Assembly (NCBI GenBank): GCA_003153875.1
Contig: PMBY01000403.1
Location: forward strand, 1 to 10,329
Direction of reading: 5' to 3'
Length of the DNA stretch: 10,329 nucleotides
Source of the DNA: Myxococcales bacterium
GTDB taxonomy: Bacteria > Myxococcota > Polyangia > Fen-1088
The notes under the pieces are model-generated. The model had not been told where the DNA came from and ran no database searches. It saw only the letters and a list, made by a program, of their open reading frames with translations. The first letter of the stretch is position 1, and each line of letters opens with the position of its first letter. The translations under genes and the position numbers were made by a program. Shown in pieces: positions 236 to 10,329 of the stretch.

Positions 236-1342
<1,107 letters not shown>

Positions 1343-1348
1343 TCGACG

Positions 1349-1585
1349 CTATCCTGCCTGTCCCGTCCAGCGCATGTACGCGCGCCGCACGTACGCGAAC
1401 CGCTCGCCCACTGTCGAGTAGCGGCGGCAGAACCAGCGCACCAAGGCCTGGGTGTGTTCGATCTCATCCGGCGAAAGTGGAATCGCCAGCCGTCGCTTCC
1501 ACTCGTCGAGTGGGACCGGCTGCTCGGCCAAGGCCTTGAGTCGGGCGCGCGTCTCAGGCGAGGCTGGGCCGATGAGTTCGCTCAT
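1349..1585 (-). CDS. small protein of unknown function
   Basis: This gene encodes 78 residues, is convergent with ddl, and leaves only 6 bp between the two stop codons. The frame extends further upstream, but the ATG at 1585 is preferred. It is preceded at about 8 nt by ACGGAG, and a plausible -10/-35 pair lies just upstream. The extra upstream codons would have to be transcribed from beyond that promoter. The protein is soluble and rich in Arg and Glu (for example ETRARLKALAEQPVPLDEWKR), with an aromatic/basic C-terminal helix (RFAYVRRAYMRW). I see no signal peptide, membrane segment or catalytic motif and do not recognise the family. Its role is unknown. Confidence 0.6.
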   Translation of the reverse strand: MSELIGPASPETRARLKALAEQPVPLDEWKRRLAIPLSPDEIEHTQALVRWFCRRYSTVGERFAYVRRAYMRWTGQAG

Positions 1586-1617
1586 GGCTTGCGCTCCGTG
1601 CGTTCCACGAAGGGAAG

Positions 1618-1646
1618 TATATAGCTTTTTCACACAGACGGCGCAA
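1618..1646 (-). promoter_or_regulatory. candidate sigma-70-type promoter for the small unknown gene
   Basis: On the minus strand a TTGCGC hexamer (1641-1646) and a TATATA hexamer (1618-1623) are separated by exactly 17 bp, in a locally AT-rich patch. Transcription would start about 25 nt before the ATG at 1585. The -35 matches the consensus at only three positions, so this is a plausible but unproven promoter. Confidence 0.4.
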
Positions 1647-1842
1647 TGGCCTGCCTTCTCAGTGCGAGTTTCTGTCGCATTATCCGACAATTGGGGCATG
1701 TTTATCCTACAAGGATTTTGGTCGCCTCCCCGGAAGGGTTCGTGGGCAACCCCGCGAAATCAGACGCATGCTCCGATTGATCTCGGCCGCCAAAGCGTGC
1801 GACTATCGCTGGGATATTAAATATTTTTCGGGGGATAATAGC

Positions 1843-1851
1843 GTTATGCGG
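1843..1851 (+). other. left boundary (core site) of the cassette array
   Basis: The sequence GTTATGCGG begins the first cassette. Its first seven bases resemble the integron core site GTTRRRY, where recombination occurs after the G. It is the exact reverse complement of CCGCATAAC at 2280-2288, the R'' end of the attC at the 3' end of the same cassette, as expected if the cassette once circularised. The AT-rich bases just before it (about 1812-1842) would be in the position of an attI site, but I cannot identify attI direct repeats. The boundary could instead be the right end of a decayed attC. Confidence 0.6.
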
Positions 1852-2271
1852 ATCCGACCCACGAGGAATGCTGCCACAACAGGGTTCCGAAGAATTGAAC
1901 CTGCTGATATCCAGCACGCGCAGTTGCGCGAACGGGCGAGTCCGGAAATGCAGGCTGCACACACAGAGCTGTTCGTGGCGACCAAGGGTTCGGAGCAGGT
2001 CGGACTACTCTCTCTTGATTTCCCTCCCGTGCCCCAGCCGCTGGAACTCTACGAGGTATTTGTGGTCTCCGAGTGTCGCTGCCAGGGCATCGGGGCATTT
2101 CTTCTCGAACAAGCCGAAATGGTCGGACGACGCCGGGGCTATCAGTCGATCCAATTGAAGCCGCATCCGCTCGACCCGGAACAGCGGCAAGAGTACCTGG
2201 TTGAATGGTATAGTCGCCATGGGTATTCACGGAGTTCCTCGGCGCCGGACTTCATGAGTAAGATGCTGTGA
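1846..2271 (+). CDS. GNAT-family N-acetyltransferase (cassette 1)
   Basis: This 141-residue protein is predicted to transfer an acetyl group from acetyl-CoA to an unidentified amine substrate. The acetyl-CoA binding motif A is clear: a hydrophobic strand LELYEVFVVS leads into RCQGIGA (residues 78-84; consensus Q/RxxGxG/A), followed by a helix LLEQAEMVGRRRGY. A C-terminal WYSRHGYSR segment matches the usual F/Y-Y-xx-x-G-F/Y end of the fold. The start is placed at the ATG at 1846. A longer frame back to 1768 would cross the predicted recombination boundary and adds no family-like sequence. That ATG lies inside the GTTATGC core site, so any ribosome binding site (a GGGGG run at 1830-1834, about 11 nt away) belongs to DNA outside the cassette. 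GNAT proteins are common integron cargo. The substrate cannot be told; antibiotic modification is possible but not shown. Confidence 0.85.
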   Translation: MRIRPTRNAATTGFRRIEPADIQHAQLRERASPEMQAAHTELFVATKGSEQVGLLSLDFPPVPQPLELYEVFVVSECRCQGIGAFLLEQAEMVGRRRGYQSIQLKPHPLDPEQRQEYLVEWYSRHGYSRSSSAPDFMSKML

Positions 2272-2279
2272 CGAATGGA

Positions 2280-2346
2280 CCGCATAACATGCCGTTGACG
2301 GTCGGCCGCGGACGGCCGCCCGCAGCTTTGCGGCAAGGCGTTGATT
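2280..2346 (+). repeat. attC-like recombination site 1 (end of cassette 1)
   Basis: R'' is GCATAAC (2282-2288). Four bases later comes CCGTTG, the spacing seen in classical attC left arms (TAAC-N4-CGTT). The right arm reads GCAGCTTTGCGGCAAGGCG, then TTGATT, resembling the classical right-arm pattern (GCTTAACTCAAGCGTTA). TGCCG (2290-2294) can pair with CGGCA (2331-2335). CGGCCG (2303-2308 and 2313-2318) forms a central stem with a 4-nt loop. R' (GTTGATT, 2340-2346) matches GTTRRRY at six of seven positions but pairs only partly with R''. Confidence 0.72.
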
Positions 2347-2356
2347 GAGGAGATCG

Positions 2357-2932
2357 ATGCCAACAGCTGAGCAAGTACTCCTGAGCGCTCTCCGTGAAAC
2401 CGCGCGCTACTATGGACCAAGGGGAGGCCGAGCACCCAAGGGCTTCACAAGACCCAAGAGCAACGAGGCCGCCGGATGGACCAGGGCAGAACTCAGCTTC
2501 TTGAAGGATAGGCTTGAACAGGCGGGGCATGTGGTGAAACGCGAGCGAGAAGTTGAAAACCGATTGCCTCCCGACTTGGTGGTGGTCGAGGGCGACGGTC
2601 GCATCACCGTACACCTTGAGCGGGAGACGCGCGGGTTCGAGTGGAATCACGTTCTCGGAGCGCTCCTCAAGATGCTGCTGCTTCCAGATCCACCGGCCGA
2701 AGTTACTTTCCTCGTGATCGCAAACACGGAAGTCGCAAACAGCGGATCTGGACCCAATTTGAACAATGTCCTCGATCTGTCCAAGAAGCTTCTTCAACGG
2801 GTGAGAGGCGTCAAGCGTCTCTACGTTGCCGCATGGTGCGGGCGGTCCCGCTGGGACGATACGCGGATCTTTCGGCTGTCCTCAACTGGCCGAATGCGCG
2901 ACGCGATCAAGAAATTGCGGGTCTTCCCCTGA
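2357..2932 (+). CDS. unknown cassette protein, possible PD-(D/E)XK nuclease-like fold (cassette 2)
   Basis: This 191-residue soluble protein begins at the ATG at 2357, preceded by GAGGAG at 2347-2352 that sits immediately after the core site; a TTG at 2345 is a less likely start. I do not recognise a named family. The N-terminal half has basic and Gly-rich segments (YYGPRGGRAPKG). Next come a helix (ELSFLKDRLEQAGHVV, about 45-60), a charged strand KREREVENRL, and then PPDLVVVEGDGRITVHLERE (71-90). A Pro-Asp pair (72-73), a hydrophobic hairpin and E-x-E (88-90) resemble the restriction-endonuclease-like core, although the usual final Lys is Glu here. The C-terminal half alternates strands and helices (EVTFLVIANTEV, RLYVAAWCGR) and has no membrane segment. 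The gene fills a single-gene cassette between two attC-like sites. Nuclease function is inference; an unrelated alpha/beta fold is possible. Confidence 0.75.
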   Translation: MPTAEQVLLSALRETARYYGPRGGRAPKGFTRPKSNEAAGWTRAELSFLKDRLEQAGHVVKREREVENRLPPDLVVVEGDGRITVHLERETRGFEWNHVLGALLKMLLLPDPPAEVTFLVIANTEVANSGSGPNLNNVLDLSKKLLQRVRGVKRLYVAAWCGRSRWDDTRIFRLSSTGRMRDAIKKLRVFP

Positions 2933-2944
2933 GGCGACAACTGC

Positions 2945-3046
2945 CCATAATGCCGTTGCATCTGGCAATCCCGCCGCAGGGACATCGTGTAGAATCGAGG
3001 CGCCGCCTCGGCGGCGGGCTTGCAGCTGAACCGCAAGCCGTTATGC
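2945..3046 (+). repeat. attC-like recombination site 2 (end of cassette 2)
   Basis: Left arm CCATAAT (2945-2951) pairs with the R' box GTTATGC (3040-3046) over six positions, counting one G-T wobble. GCCGTTGCATCTG (2952-2964) pairs with CAGCTGAACCGC (3023-3034), with two mismatches and one unpaired G at 2958. An extra base in the left arm is a known feature of attC sites. The right arm GCTGAACCGCAAGCCGTTA closely follows the classical pattern. CGCCGCC (3001-3007) and GGCGGCG (3010-3016) form an inner hairpin. The R'' box lacks the usual final C. Confidence 0.75.
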
Positions 3047-3063
3047 GCACATCATTCAACTAA
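3043..3063 (+). promoter_or_regulatory. six-codon leader ORF starting in the attC core site, stop overlapping the next start
   Basis: The ATG inside the core site GTTATGC opens a mini-ORF of six codons (MRTSFN) that ends in TAA at 3061-3063. The last A of that stop is the first base of the cassette 3 start codon (TAATG). Cassette 3 has no visible Shine-Dalgarno sequence, so translational coupling from this mini-ORF could start its synthesis. In class 1 integrons a short ORF in attI1 is known to help translation of cassettes that lack a ribosome binding site. A similar role here is inference. Confidence 0.45.
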
Positions 3064-3800
3064 TGGCTCCGCGGAGACGACCACCAAACCAGGCGCGACT
3101 GATAGCCTTATTGCTAAGGCTCGATCAGATTGGGGAGGACGTCGGGCAGTTCATTGGCAGCGCCGAGGCCTCGCTGAGTCATGACTCCTTGGACGACCTC
3201 GCGAAGCGTCCGAAAGAACTGATTCAGCAGTTTCAGAAGGCGGTGACGGCGAGCCTCGGAGTCGCCAAGATGGCGGCTGCCGGCTTTGCGGGTCAATCGG
3301 AGAGCGAACCGCCGCCAGAGCACGACAAGTTCCAGCGCTGGATGCTGGAGATTAGTCCTCACGAGTTGATGACTCTTCTCCTGCGTACTTTTGTCATCGT
3401 AGCCTGCGCAGAGCTTGAACGCTTTCTTCGCGAGATGGCGCGCTGGCATCTGACTGACAAGGAGATTCAACGCGTTAGAGCAGATCGCGACAGGCCTCCA
3501 AACCTCGCTCACTCGAACGCGAAAGCGAAGGCTCAGCTCATCGATCTCGTGTGCCCTACTGTTGGTCGACCCTCCGTGTGGCCGCGGCGGTTGCGCCTCG
3601 TATTCGGATTTCGATTCCCGAAGCCATTGGTCACTTCTCTGCGCATACTTGTACAGTGGCGTCACGAGTTTTCACACAGGAACTGCGCACCCCTCGCTGT
3701 CGACTGGAGCGGCGATCCGGATGCGATAGAGTCGATCATTACTTGGTGGCTCGCCTGTATCGCCAGCAGTGACATGGTGGTCGCCCGTACGCGTCGATAG
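3063..3800 (+). CDS. HEPN-like protein with RX4H motif, putative RNase (cassette 3)
   Basis: This 245-residue, mostly helical protein starts at the ATG at 3063 within TAATG, with no clear ribosome binding site of its own. Near the C-terminus WRHEFSHR gives R200-x4-H205, the RX4-6H signature of HEPN-domain ribonucleases, where the Arg and His are catalytic. Upstream helices include LMTLLLRTFVIVACAELERF (about 104-123), a bundle compatible with the four-helix HEPN fold. The N-terminal third (LIALLLRLDQIGEDVGQFIG) is another amphipathic helix region. HEPN proteins act in toxin-antitoxin, abortive infection and other defence settings, usually cutting RNA. No partner such as a MNT nucleotidyltransferase is encoded next to it. 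The gene stands alone in a cassette between attC-like sites. I do not recognise a named subfamily, and the nuclease role rests mainly on the motif. Confidence 0.72.
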   Translation: MAPRRRPPNQARLIALLLRLDQIGEDVGQFIGSAEASLSHDSLDDLAKRPKELIQQFQKAVTASLGVAKMAAAGFAGQSESEPPPEHDKFQRWMLEISPHELMTLLLRTFVIVACAELERFLREMARWHLTDKEIQRVRADRDRPPNLAHSNAKAKAQLIDLVCPTVGRPSVWPRRLRLVFGFRFPKPLVTSLRILVQWRHEFSHRNCAPLAVDWSGDPDAIESIITWWLACIASSDMVVARTRR

Positions 3801-3805
3801 CGGTG

Positions 3806-3921
3806 GCGCATAACCAATAGGCGTTTGATCCGGTCGCAGGAATAGAAACCCTGTCTGTCTGGCGCCTGGCGGCGGCACAGGTGCCAGAGGCCTGTGGCGG
3901 ATCGACCGTGCCTCGTAGCAC
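3806..3921 (+). repeat. attC-like recombination site 3, degenerate right end (end of cassette 3)
   Basis: The left end GCGCATAAC (3806-3814) is the exact reverse complement of GTTATGCGC, the first bases of the same cassette (3040-3048). GATCCGGTCGCAGG (3828-3841) pairs, with one bulge and a wobble, with CCTGTGGCGGATC (3891-3903). Inside it CTGGCGCCTG (3859-3868) and CAGGTGCCAG (3878-3887) form a 10-bp stem with one G-T pair and a 9-nt loop. The expected R' box would fall at GTAGCAC (3915-3921), which matches GTTRRRY at only five of seven positions. The site looks like an attC whose right core has decayed, closing the array. Confidence 0.6.
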
Positions 3922-3981
3922 GATTCCCCAACCAAGATTGATTCCCCAGCAACTTGTTCAACCGGTTTCCGATGACTCCGC

Positions 3982-4227
3982 GTGAGCCCCACGATTCTTC
4001 GGATCGGCGGATACCGGTTCTACTTCTTCTCGCGCGAGGAGCCGAGGGCGCATGTGCACGTGCAACATTCCAACGGACAGGCAAAGTTCTGGCTGGAACC
4101 AGACGTGCAGCTCGCGCAGAATTATGGCCTCGGTCACCGTCAAGTCTCGACGGCGTTTCGGCTGATCAAGGAGAACGAAGATGAAATCCGCGCTGCGTGG
4201 GAAGACCATTTCGACCGTCGAGGTTAG
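3982..4227 (+). CDS. DUF4160 family protein
   Basis: This 81-residue protein starts at a GTG. The N-terminus SPTILRIGGYRFYFFSREEPRAHVHVQHSNGQAKFWL is the characteristic start of DUF4160, including the His-Val-His-Val segment and the E-P-D-V-Q-L-A-Q-N-Y-G-L stretch (residues 39-50). The C-terminal helix RLIKENEDEIRAAWEDHF is also typical, so the protein is full length. The biochemical role of the family is unknown. DUF4160 genes are often found next to DUF2442 genes, as here, and such pairs have been suspected to be toxin-antitoxin-like. The start is fixed by the match to family N-termini; the ribosome binding site is poor. Its last 47 bases overlap the following gene. No attC-like site could be recognised after the pair, so it may not be part of the cassette array. 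Confidence 0.88.
   Translation: MSPTILRIGGYRFYFFSREEPRAHVHVQHSNGQAKFWLEPDVQLAQNYGLGHRQVSTAFRLIKENEDEIRAAWEDHFDRRG
4168..4173 (+). promoter_or_regulatory. strong ribosome binding site for the DUF2442 gene
   Basis: AAGGAG lies 7 nt before the ATG at 4181, inside the DUF4160 coding sequence. It decides the start of the downstream gene and indicates that the 47-bp overlap is real. Confidence 0.7.
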
Positions 4228-4531
4228 CAAGGTCTCCCCTATGGGATTCTGGCTGCACGTTGACGATCGCGACCTGTTGGTGCCGTTCAAGCAATTCCCG
4301 TGGTTCGCGGACGCCACGATACGGCAGATCACAGCCGTGGAGAGACCCAGCCCCCACCACCTTCGCTGGCCCGACCTCGATATCGATCTCGCCCTCGCGT
4401 CCATCGAGCATCCTGAGCGGTTCCCGCTCATGAGCCGTGTGCTGCCTGGCCTGCCTCTGCAGCGGGCGCAGCTGCCACATCGGCGACCGCGGAAAGCCAG
4501 CCCGTCATCTCGGAGGCCGGCGCGCGACTGA
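4181..4531 (+). CDS. DUF2442 family protein
   Basis: This 116-residue protein's first 85 residues match DUF2442: a strand pair EVSKVSPMGFWLHVDDRDLL, the PFKQFPWF motif (about 35-42), then WPDLDIDL (63-70) and IEHPERFPL. Function is unknown. It is the regular neighbour of DUF4160, and the two are probably made together and may form a complex or a toxin-antitoxin-like pair (inference from association only). The ATG at 4181 has a good AAGGAG at 7 nt, which supports the 47-bp overlap with DUF4160. The last 30 or so residues (Arg/Pro/Ser-rich, ending RRPARD) do not look like the family. They probably reflect loss of the original stop and read-through into the GC-rich intergenic region. Confidence 0.87.
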   Translation: MKSALRGKTISTVEVSKVSPMGFWLHVDDRDLLVPFKQFPWFADATIRQITAVERPSPHHLRWPDLDIDLALASIEHPERFPLMSRVLPGLPLQRAQLPHRRPRKASPSSRRPARD

Positions 4532-4606
4532 GGCCACCTGAGTCTTTCCGGCGTCCCAGGCAACCTCGAGGTCGGCTAGCGTGGGCGGTGGCGGTAGCGG
4601 TAGCGA

Positions 4607-4795: not shown

Positions 4796-6061
4796 CTACT
4801 TCTGGTCCAGCACTTCAATCGGCGGCATGGCCTTGCCTTCGAGATACTCCAGGCTGGCGCCGCCGCCGGTCGACACGTGGGTCATCTTGTCGGCCAGGCC
4901 CATCTTTTCGACCGCTGCGGCCGAGTCACCGCCGCCGATCACCGTGATGGCGCCGCGCCCCGTGGCCGCAGCAATCGCCTTGGCCACGGCCAAGGTGCCG
5001 GCCGCGTAGTCGGGCGACTCGAACACGCCCATGGGACCGTTCCATACGATGGTGCCGGCCTTGCCGATGATGTCGCTGAAGGCAGCCACCGTCTTGGGGC
5101 CGATGTCCATGCCCATCAGCCCGTCGGGAATCGCCTCGCCGGGCACCACGGTGGGCTTGTCGCCGGTCATGGCCTTAAAGTCAAAGTTGGCCGCTGCGCT
5201 GTGGTCCGAGGGCAGCACGATCTTGCCGCCTGCCTGTCCCAGCAGCTTCTTCATCTCTTCGACTTGGTCTTCCTCGACCCGGCTCTTGCCCACGGCCACC
5301 CCGCGCGCCTTCAGCAGGGTGTAGGCCATGGCCCCGCCGATGAGGATGTGGTCCACCTTGCCGAGCAGGTTGGAGATGAGCTTGATCTTGTCGCTGACCT
5401 TGGCCCCGCCCAGGATGGCCACGAAGGGCCGCTTGGGGCTGGACACGGCTTCGTGCAGATAGCGGATCTCCTTTTCCACTAGATACCCAGCGACCGCGGC
5501 GCCGCCCTTCTTCTGGATGGCCTTGGCCGTGCCGTACATGCTGGCGTGCTTGCGGTGGCAGGTGCCAAAGGCGTCATTGACGTACACGTCGCCCAGCTTG
5601 GCCAAGCCAGCCACGAAATCGTCGTGGGTCTTCTGCTGTTCGGGTGTCAGCTTCTTGTCGGGATTCTTCTTGGCCTTGTCGGGCATGGTCTCGCCCGCGT
5701 GGAAGCGCACGTTCTCCAGCAGCGCGGTCTCGCCCGGCTTGAGCGAGGCCACTAGCGCCTCGGCGGCCGGACCGATGACCTCGTTGGGCCCGAGCTTCAC
5801 CGGCTTGCCCAGCAGTTCGCCCAGGCGTACGGCGCAAGGCTTGAGGCTGCCTTCGGGATCAAAGGCGCCATCAGGCCGGCCCAGGTGGCTCATCAGTACC
5901 AGCTTGCCGCCCTGGTCTAGCACTTGCTTGATGCTGGGGAGCGCGGCGCGGATGCGCCGGTCGTCGGTGATCTGACCGCCCTTCAAAGGCACGTTGAAGT
6001 CCACGCGCATGAGCACGGTCTTGCCGCTGACGTTGATGTCTGCAAGGGTCTTGGTCGCCAT
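4796..6061 (-). CDS. pgk: phosphoglycerate kinase
   Basis: This is a cytoplasmic glycolytic enzyme that transfers phosphate between 1,3-bisphosphoglycerate and ADP to give 3-phosphoglycerate and ATP. The 421-residue product is full length. The N-terminal substrate domain has RVDFNVP (19-25), SHLGRPDG (58-65), [11 protein letters not shown] and [18 protein letters not shown]. The nucleotide domain has [32 protein letters not shown] (from 376) and STGGGAS (397-403). A Lys/Glu-rich insertion ([15 protein letters not shown], roughly 128-150) makes it a little longer than minimal bacterial enzymes but falls where eukaryotic-type and other long forms vary. The ATG at 6061 is preceded by GAGAGG at about 8 nt. 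The gene stands alone: no gap or tpi gene lies beside it, and a palindromic element separates it from the upstream gene, so it should have its own promoter. A weak TACTAT -10-like hexamer occurs on the minus strand at 6116-6121. Confidence 0.98.
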
Positions 6062-6160: not shown

Positions 6161-6325
6161 CTAGTGCCTCCAGTCACAATTCCAGCCAGGTTTGGGCCGC
6201 CCATGCATCCCGCCCTGCTTCGTTGCTCCTCGGTTACATACGTCGAGTATGCGCCCTCGTCGCGCCTCGCAGGACGGGCGCCTGAACGACCGAAACCTGG
6301 CCGATCTTCTGACTGGAGGCACTAG
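6161..6325. mobile_element. 165-bp near-palindromic, MITE-like element
   Basis: The element begins CTAGTGCCTCCAGTCA (6161-6176) and ends with the exact reverse complement (6310-6325). Pairing continues inward with mismatches. CCAGGTTTGGGCCG pairs with its opposite arm at about 12 of 14 positions, then CCCGCCCTGC at 9 of 10. The centre is CATAC-GTCGA-GTATG. The whole unit can fold into one long hairpin and encodes no convincing protein. Ends in CTAG are compatible with a TA or CTAG target duplication, as made by IS630/mariner-type elements, but only one copy is in the window. Its right end lies 4 bp past the stop of the TPR-type gene, so its transcript could also act as a terminator. A smaller 7-bp inverted repeat (6306-6312 and 6330-6336) overlaps that stop codon. 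Confidence 0.65.
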
Positions 6326-8876: not shown

Positions 8877-9146
8877 GGGTATTCCCCGATAGGTTACTCC
8901 TAGCGGCGGCGCGGACAAGTTGATTCGCGGCTGCTAGCCCCGTCGTCTGACGGTCGTCGCACGTGGCAGTGTGTACGCTCATGTGCGTCGCTGGTCCAGG
9001 CGGATTGTGCAGCGCGCTTGGCGGAGGCACAGGGGCACACAGGGGGCTACAAGATTGACAAGAAGTGGAACTGTCGGCAGCGTGTCCGAGGTCTAGCCTT
9101 GACCGTCGAAAAGCCAGTGGTGGTGCCAGCTCTGAGGAGACAGGAG

Positions 9147-10329
9147 ATGAACCGAATGAATCTTCCGGTGGTTCTGTTTGCGAGTTTCGGATTGCTGGCC
9201 GCTTGCTCCAGCGGCATTACCGATGCTCCACACCCAGGGGGCTCAAGTAAGACCGGCGGTAGCTCAGGCGGTGGAACCAGCTCGGACGCTGCGATCGGCT
9301 CAGGCGGAACGACCAGCTCGGCGGGCGAGATCGGCTCAGGCGGTGTGATCGGCTCAGCCGGGATGGCCAGCTCGGCGGGCGAGATCGGCTCAGGTGGTGG
9401 AACCAATTCAGGCGGTGCAATCGGCCCAGGCGGCGGGACCAACTCTGGTGGTGCGATCGGTTCAGGCGGCGGGACCAGCTCGGGTGGCGCGATCGGCTCA
9501 GGCGGCGGGACCAGCTCGGGCGGAACATTTCTTGTTGGTGGAAAAGATGCAGGGGGCGCCTCAGAGGTTAGGGATGGCGGCTCGTTGGTTGACGGCCCAG
9601 GCACCGGTGGCAGTGCCACACCAGACGCTTCTGTGGACATCGCCGTGGGTGGACAGGGCGGCGGCGCTGAGGTGGGCAGCCCGGTCGACTGCCACGCGCC
9701 GCCCGCCCTTGTGAATGGTTTGGTCAGCGCTCCACTCACGACATTCGGCGCGGTGGCGACATATGGTTGCAACCTTGGCTATTCCCTCACGGGATTGGCC
9801 ACGCGCACTTGTCAGGCCAGTGGCACCTGGAGCGGCACGCCTCCCACTTGCCTTCTGGTGGACTGCGGTGCGCTGCCCGCCATTGCCAACGGCTTGGTCA
9901 AGGCGGTCGCTACCACATACGGCGCGACGGCGACATATGCCTGCAGCGCCGGCTATTTCCTCACCGGCACGCCCACCCGCACTTGTCAGGCCGACGGCAC
10001 CTGGAGCGGCTCAACACCTGTTTGCTCAATTCAGATGCCGAATCTAACGATCAACAAGGTTGGCGCTGGCACGGTGGCCAGCACGCCCGCCGGCATCAAC
10101 TGCGGAACCACCTGTCAGGCGACCTTCGCTGCCGGAACCGTCGTGACCCTTGCGGCCACGCCGGATGCCAACCAGACCTTCATGGGTTGGGATAGCACGG
10201 CCTGCTCAGGAACCGGAATGTGCACCCTCACGCTCACCAGCAACACGGTGGTGCGAGCCTCCTTTTCCCCACCGCCCAACATCATGTTCACGACCTCGAC
10301 CACGCAAACGCCGGCTTTGGGCGGACTGA
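9147..10329 (+). CDS. Gly/Ser-repeat lipoprotein with Sushi (CCP) and InlB-type repeats, 3' end outside window
   Basis: A frame open from the ATG at 9147 to the window edge gives 394 codons. GGAG lies immediately before the ATG; AGGAGA at 9135-9140 is a better-spaced ribosome binding site. The N-terminus is a lipoprotein signal with lipobox LAAC, Cys20 being the lipidated residue. A Gly/Ser-rich tandem repeat (residues 39-128) and a Gly/Asp linker follow. Two Sushi/CCP modules come next (182-236 and 240-293), each with the CxxPP/LxxxNG start, TYxCxxGYxLTG middle and RTCQAxGTWSGxxPxC end, giving four Cys each. Residues 299-373 match the divergent InlB B-repeat type (GTVASTPAGINCG, TFMGWDSTACSG, TVVRASF). 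The last residues (MFTTSTTQTPALGGL) appear to open another extracellular domain that is cut off. The protein probably projects from the outer membrane and binds proteins or glycans; that role is inference. Confidence 0.88.
   Translation, partial: MNRMNLPVVLFASFGLLAACSSGITDAPHPGGSSKTGGSSGGGTSSDAAIGSGGTTSSAGEIGSGGVIGSAGMASSAGEIGSGGGTNSGGAIGPGGGTNSGGAIGSGGGTSSGGAIGSGGGTSSGGTFLVGGKDAGGASEVRDGGSLVDGPGTGGSATPDASVDIAVGGQGGGAEVGSPVDCHAPPALVNGLVSAPLTTFGAVATYGCNLGYSLTGLATRTCQASGTWSGTPPTCLLVDCGALPAIANGLVKAVATTYGATATYACSAGYFLTGTPTRTCQADGTWSGSTPVCSIQMPNLTINKVGAGTVASTPAGINCGTTCQATFAAGTVVTLAATPDANQTFMGWDSTACSGTGMCTLTLTSNTVVRASFSPPPNIMFTTSTTQTPALGGL
9261..9530 (+). repeat. 36-bp in-frame tandem repeat in the lipoprotein gene
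   Basis: Seven imperfect 36-bp units plus one exact half unit (18 bp, 9333-9350) make up exactly 270 bp. The encoded 12-residue unit is about GSGGGTSSGGAI. Later units (9387-9530) are more alike than earlier ones, suggesting recent duplication at the 3' side. The half unit suggests an older 18-bp (six-residue) period. All copies keep the reading frame. Confidence 0.85.

Follow-up and report, generated by a model that had tools for sequence, protein, structure and literature searches.

An attC cluster with an attI leader and no adjacent integrase gene, beside ddl in a Myxococcales genome

We analysed a stretch of 10,329 bases, called the window below, from contig PMBY01000403.1 of a Myxococcales bacterium (assembly GCA_003153875.1). 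Three genes on the plus strand lie here between ddl and a pgk-like gene of the opposite strand, and together they make up a short array of integron cassettes (Table 1). The initial annotation, made from the letters alone, had proposed these three genes, each followed by an attC-like palindrome, with ddl and a frame of 78 residues as upstream neighbours and no integrase in the window. The genes, their neighbours and the missing integrase gene (intI) all hold up on closer analysis. Two of the three palindromes are attC sites, while the third retains only the left half of one. The suggestion of an attC cluster lacking an integrase, made alongside that of a split integron, stands as well, with two attC sites, no intI and genes that do not travel as a fixed block. 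Overlooked in that first reading was an attI leader immediately before the array; with attI kept, the cluster is best explained by the loss of intI.

Table 1. Coordinates of the array and of its chromosomal surroundings in the window.
Feature	Position	Strand	Remarks
ddl (D-alanine--D-alanine ligase)	236..1342	+	left chromosomal neighbour; kept in L001-L008
Conserved 78-residue frame	1349..1585	-	next gene in L001 and L002 nucleotidyltransferase-like (named by eye), deleted in the window
Scar	1601..1625		joined directly to base 1600; similar to sequence at the start of the missing nucleotidyltransferase-like gene (by eye, in alignments with L001 and L002)
attI leader	1659..1842	+	profile core 1746-1841; directly 3' of intI in intI-bearing relatives
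First R' box	1843..1849	+	GTTATGC; expected crossover G1843^T1844; array begins at 1843-1844
Cassette 1	1844..2340	+	GNAT acetyltransferase gene 1846-2271; Pfam PF00583, E 4e-08
attC1	2282..2346	+	R'' GCATAAC 2282-2288; R' GTTGATT 2340-2346
Cassette 2	2341..3040	+	ORF2 2357-2932 (191 residues), without a Pfam match; weak resemblance to a restriction-endonuclease-like fold
attC2	2945..3046	+	R'' CCATAAT 2945-2951; R' GTTATGC 3040-3046; 82% to an attC in L101
Cassette 3, 3' end truncated	3041..3864	+	ORF3 3063-3800, 245 residues
attC3, left half	3808..3864	+	R'' GCATAAC 3808-3814; right arm lost
DNA beyond the break	3865..3981		3871-3908 resembles L001 13549-13585; 3921 onward resembles L002 12214 onward
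DUF4160 and DUF2442 genes	3982..4531	+	outside the array; common to sister locus L002
pgk-like gene (name by eye)	4796..6061	-	right chromosomal neighbour

Cassettes and attC sites of the array

A covariance model, R1, was built from 13 attC sites that lie beside integron integrases in arrays of the sister genomes G003, G001, G010 and G006, with the sites of the window excluded. The first alignment had held 15 sites, two of which (L101:12243-12335 and L098:834-966) aligned poorly and were dropped. Searched with filters off, the window returned attC1 with 41.8 bits (E 4.1e-09) and attC2 with 35.3 bits (E 2e-07), these R1 E-values being rough. The third-best match reached only 11.3 bits, and site 3 was not reported, so that the covariance-model check suggested in the initial annotation recovered two of its three sites. 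When L001-L008 and the integron loci are set aside, the best R1 match in any locus across 58 sources (964,358 bases) scored 23.2 bits (L038). The model matches in at least 11 of 12 sister genomes, and the L098 site at 834, which lay outside the training set, scores 52.1 bits.

Site 3 was recognised by direct comparison. Bases 3812-3864 are 96% identical to L101 12331-12279, which form the left half of one attC of the G003 array, a site among the two left out of R1. Because this similarity stops after 3864, we regard the right arm of attC3 as lost; in the palindrome spanning 3805-3931, the right side is supplied by unrelated DNA. Relative to shuffled sequences, the site folds better than most on the top strand (z -2.59) and no better on the bottom strand (z -0.23). 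As a separate observation, the bodies of this site and its G003 counterpart are near-identical and their R boxes differ (GCATAAC versus GCCCAAC), each box fitting the 5' end of its own cassette. Such cassette-specific boxes on similar bodies may bear on how cassettes gain attC sites.

The similar left arm that had been noted in the three palindromes corresponds to R''-like boxes reading GCATAAC, CCATAAT and GCATAAC. In the circular form, the R' box of a cassette's 5' end meets the R'' box of its 3' end, and the two are therefore expected to be reverse complements. Complementarity extends over 7 of 7 bases in cassette 1 (boxes at 1843 and 2282) and in cassette 3 (3040 and 3808). The plus strand has no GTTATGC other than those at 1843 and 3040, and no GCATAAC apart from those at 2282 and 3808. 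Complementary boxes were also seen in 14 of the 15 sister cassettes tested, one of which (the L098 site at 834) had itself been found by a search for complementary boxes. For the L101 site whose R'' lies at 10938 (reversed locus), no R' could be clearly placed, and the pair that follows it is left uncounted.

Cassette 1 also occurs in a different array. Its copy lies in G005 on contig C175 (L131), which is not the contig that carries ddl, and there another cassette (attC at L131 3931-3995) stands between it and attI. Local similarity covers window positions 1845-2344 at 93%, its ends falling a few bases at most from the two cassette borders. When the whole cassette is aligned globally, 468 of 504 columns are identical, against 40% and 49% in the 60-base flanks. 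Mobility as a unit bordered by R' boxes is thereby seen for one of the three window cassettes. The initial annotation had asked whether related genomes hold the three genes as a fixed block; instead, cassette 1 sits in this other array, and neither ORF2 nor ORF3 found a match among the 14 sister genomes searched. The G005 copy is eroded, since its R' carries a mutation and reads GCTATGC. Between the two GNAT genes 18 codons differ, 13 of them changing the residue, and there is no sign of strong purifying selection.

The two remaining cassette proteins have few relatives. At E 0.01 among about 5.8 billion proteins, three matches were found for ORF2 and two for ORF3; two of these, P0001 and P0004, match the window proteins themselves at 100% identity. 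ORF3 shows a weak match to HEPN_RiboL-PSP (E 0.007, under the curated cut-off) and contains RHEFSH, a string retained in its single distant homologue, P0005, and one that we take to fit the R-X4-H motif of HEPN RNases. With an acetyltransferase and two orphan proteins bearing weak nuclease-like hints, the cassettes present such arrays as a source of uncharacterised genes. As read from the sequence, the GNAT start codon (ATG, 1846) falls inside the R' box, and the R' box of cassette 3 starts a frame of six codons overlapping the start of ORF3 (TAATG, 3061-3065); both arrangements may affect translation.

The attI leader and integrase genes of sister genomes

The DNA to the left of cassette 1 matches what follows intI in related genomes. 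Positions 1659-1841 match the sequence right after the intI stop codon in G008:C339 (L097) at 71% identity (E 2.6e-25), and the leader also aligns with post-intI DNA of G003, G006, G001 and G007. A leader/attI profile, R2, made from seven sister copies and none from the window, matches 1746-1841 with 82.5 bits (E 1.4e-25), and this core is conserved among the sister copies. In an alignment of 15 leaders, a border of the AATAG..G^TT type is present in nine, the window included; GTT is lost in two (G004:C459 and G005:C175), and four stop earlier at a contig end. Of the features of a complete integron, an attI beside the first cassette is present as judged by its sequence, and an intI beside attI is absent. 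At E 1e-4, tblastn detected no similarity to IntI anywhere in the window, and the best match in the 1.6 kb before 1746 had an E-value of only 0.14. Where relatives possess intI, the gene reads towards attI, in the same direction as the cassettes. All that appears to be left of an intI terminator hairpin is its right arm, at about 1664 (by eye).

A scan for ddl kept 80 loci, of which L001-L008 are the closest (80-96% protein identity); seven of these are titled Myxococcales and one Proteobacteria. Integrases above the curated cut-off of TIGR02249 (integron integrase) are present in 6 of 12 sister genomes; among 39 relatives of G001 that were searched, counting G001 itself, 11 have them. Some genomes hold more than one, at two places in G006, two in G010 and three in G016. 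In the long-contig assemblies of G014 and G017, attC matches lie behind intI and, in addition, on contigs where TIGR02249 has no match at E 1e-60. With 150 candidates per genome scored, R2 places leaders at no fewer than 13 sites in at least 6 of the 12 sister genomes.

Fourteen leader copies, the window among them, were checked for intI upstream, and the gene is a stub or absent in 12, a tally biased by the fact that five of the seven R2 source copies lack a full intI and that R2 misses diverged leaders behind intI in G001:C45, G006, G007 and G010. A long intI precedes two copies, G008:C339 and G003:C398, the latter matching model positions 50-314 only. Four others have a 3' stub alone (E <1e-4), namely G002:C171 (where only 324 bases of upstream sequence are available), G004:C459, G008:C355 and G003:C269 (in two frames); a fifth stub, in G001:C4, is doubtful (E 0.06). 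In the remaining seven, which include the window, the upstream test gave no intI, about seven codons being discernible by eye in G005:C338. G003 and G008 each hold one leader with a long intI and one with a stub only. The stubs of G002:C171, G004:C459, G008:C355 and G001:C4 all start in a stretch of about ten codons, presumably near the catalytic tyrosine. This shared start may be due to chance, two of the copies belonging to one orthologous locus and one match being doubtful.

Flanks were compared over mostly 2-5 kb at E 1e-8. We considered whether all leaders without intI lie at independent loci and rejected this, as G004:C459 and G008:C355 are orthologous by their flanks. Two further loci are shared, the ddl locus by the window and G005:C163, and another by G006:C150 and G007:C118. 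The other copies without intI showed no common flank at these settings beyond intI matches and a few of less than 100 bases. At the ddl locus, G005 also carries a leader remnant, and attC-like matches lie in the interval between ddl and pgk in L001 (13358-13421, 35.0 bits) and in L005 (26.7, 24.9 and 22.0 bits, one of them on the opposite strand). Integron DNA was therefore probably present at this locus in the common ancestor.

Some details of these relatives stand apart. The weak attC-like matches of L005 (fen_1125, 12287-13862) surround methyltransferase-like and GNAT-like genes, named by eye. They lie upstream of an attI-leader remnant at 13794-13862, the attC-like sites thus preceding the leader. 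In G001, intI is interrupted at about residue 265, at L098 1-44 (C45) and at the start of L102 (C101), both contig ends beginning, by eye, with CCGGGGACTCGGCATAAT; this looks like an insertion element.

Origin of the array

In our view the array is very probably the remnant of a sedentary chromosomal integron that has decayed, with intI and the leader/attI ancestral, intI lost later and the remainder fixed between ddl and pgk. Since attI and the post-intI leader are retained, loss of intI is favoured over off-target insertion of cassettes, and we infer that the gene was lost in place, not that an already truncated unit arrived. The ancestral intI would have lain to the left of 1659 and been transcribed towards attI, with the leader ending at attI G1843^T1844. 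IntI would have excised cassettes and inserted circular ones between G and TT in the R' box, and the first genes would probably have been served by a promoter within the leader. Later, and presumably in this order, intI would have been lost, the adjacent nucleotidyltransferase-like gene would have been deleted, and a break on the right-hand side would have severed the last attC, leaving attI, two complete cassettes and a truncated one. Because intI is gone and attC3 is broken, such an array should be static and would not recombine by itself, unless an integrase acted in trans. Several points weigh against this reading. The R boxes of cassette 2 are not complementary (GTTGATT versus CCATAAT), a consensus promoter scan of plus-strand positions 1580-4600 found none, and an intact intI was found at the ddl locus itself in none of the loci read. 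Furthermore, the close relatives are metagenome-assembled genomes of unstated completeness, whose intI absences are weak evidence.

Activity in trans is the core of an alternative that we judge unlikely, a split or non-autonomous integron worked by an integrase elsewhere in the cell, with attI arrays lacking intI as a stable, multiplied form in the clade. The broken attC3, the mismatched boxes of cassette 2 and the mutated R' of the G005 copy all speak against it, even with the G^TT border of attI and two R-box pairs intact. In its favour are the genomes with several integrases above the cut-off, the pairing in G008 and G003 of a leader that has a long intI with one that has a stub only, and the attC contigs of G014 and G017 on which TIGR02249 is not matched at E 1e-60; G002, G004 and G005, on the other hand, have no integrase above the cut-off, in assemblies of unstated completeness. 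Still more doubtful is the broader proposal that this clade of uncultured myxobacteria has a multiplied family of non-autonomous integrons, made of attI leaders and short arrays with intI absent or reduced to a stub, at several places and with cassettes shuffled in trans. If that held, the clustered starts of the intI stubs would reflect the left boundary of a unit that was copied, and not random decay.

Off-target insertion, by which an IntI elsewhere would have placed the cassettes at a site other than attI, has a counterpart in Xanthomonas clusters that lack intI and lie away from the main integron (PMC12444791). The leader match contradicts it, since what precedes the first cassette is the attI leader itself, and we consider it very improbable. 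That the palindromes arose by chance between ordinary chromosomal genes is scarcely credible: their bottom-strand folding is modest (z -1.84, -3.03 and -0.23 for sites 1 to 3), yet for sites 1 and 2 chance is refuted by R1 scores that exceed both the next match in the window and the best elsewhere, and by cassette borders common to G005.

Most clusters of attC sites lacking integron integrases (CALINs) are, as far as is known, difficult to assign to a route of origin, attI being a poorly conserved site. The loss route becomes visible here through attI, the leader and the graded states of intI in sister genomes (complete, stub, none). By the IntegronFinder definition of the term (PMC9024848), which asks for two attC sites or more without a neighbouring intI, the array is a CALIN within the 10,329 bases analysed. 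Its few cassettes are as expected of degraded integrons, whereas its attI and post-intI leader set it apart and point to intI loss, one of three proposed routes to CALINs besides off-target insertion and rearrangement (PMC8618304).

In Treponema integrons, intI is described in the direction of the cassettes, and T. phagedenis holds a remnant without intI (PMC3607928). The window resembles these in the transcription of intI towards attI and in the persistence of attC and cassettes after intI loss; it belongs to another phylum, its leader can still be recognised, and some genomes of the clade hold related leaders at more than one place. For Xanthomonas, repeated inactivation of intI and CALINs at several loci are reported (PMC12444791). 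Recurrent decay of intI in sister lineages and cassette clusters away from intI are common to both, whereas intI there lies downstream of ilvD with two exceptions, and the leaders of the present clade have varied flanks. According to a survey, nearly a third of intI genes are pseudogenes and a fifth of carriers have more than one intI (PMC2426708), and Myxococcota are mentioned for homologous attC sites in PMC9668308. In searches of the open-licence literature, we found no description of the integrons of this clade. CALINs formed by intI loss, and intI decay in general, are already known; as far as can be told, a retained attI together with several leader places per genome is less usual.

Minor observations in the neighbourhood

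Beyond the array, the DNA of the DUF4160 and DUF2442 pair is 94.7% identical to that of L002, where the pair adjoins a piece resembling the 3' end of pgk; the two genes may be of a toxin-antitoxin type. Past the pgk-like gene, about 160 bases at 6161-6325 have inverted ends, TAGTGCCTCCAGTCA...TGACTGGAGGCACTA, and are missing from L001, where the flanks abut. No further copy was found in the loci compared, and the segment looks like a small mobile palindromic element. Near the right end of the window, 9146-10328 encodes a predicted protein in which serine/glycine-rich repeats and two sushi-like (CCP) modules are seen by eye.

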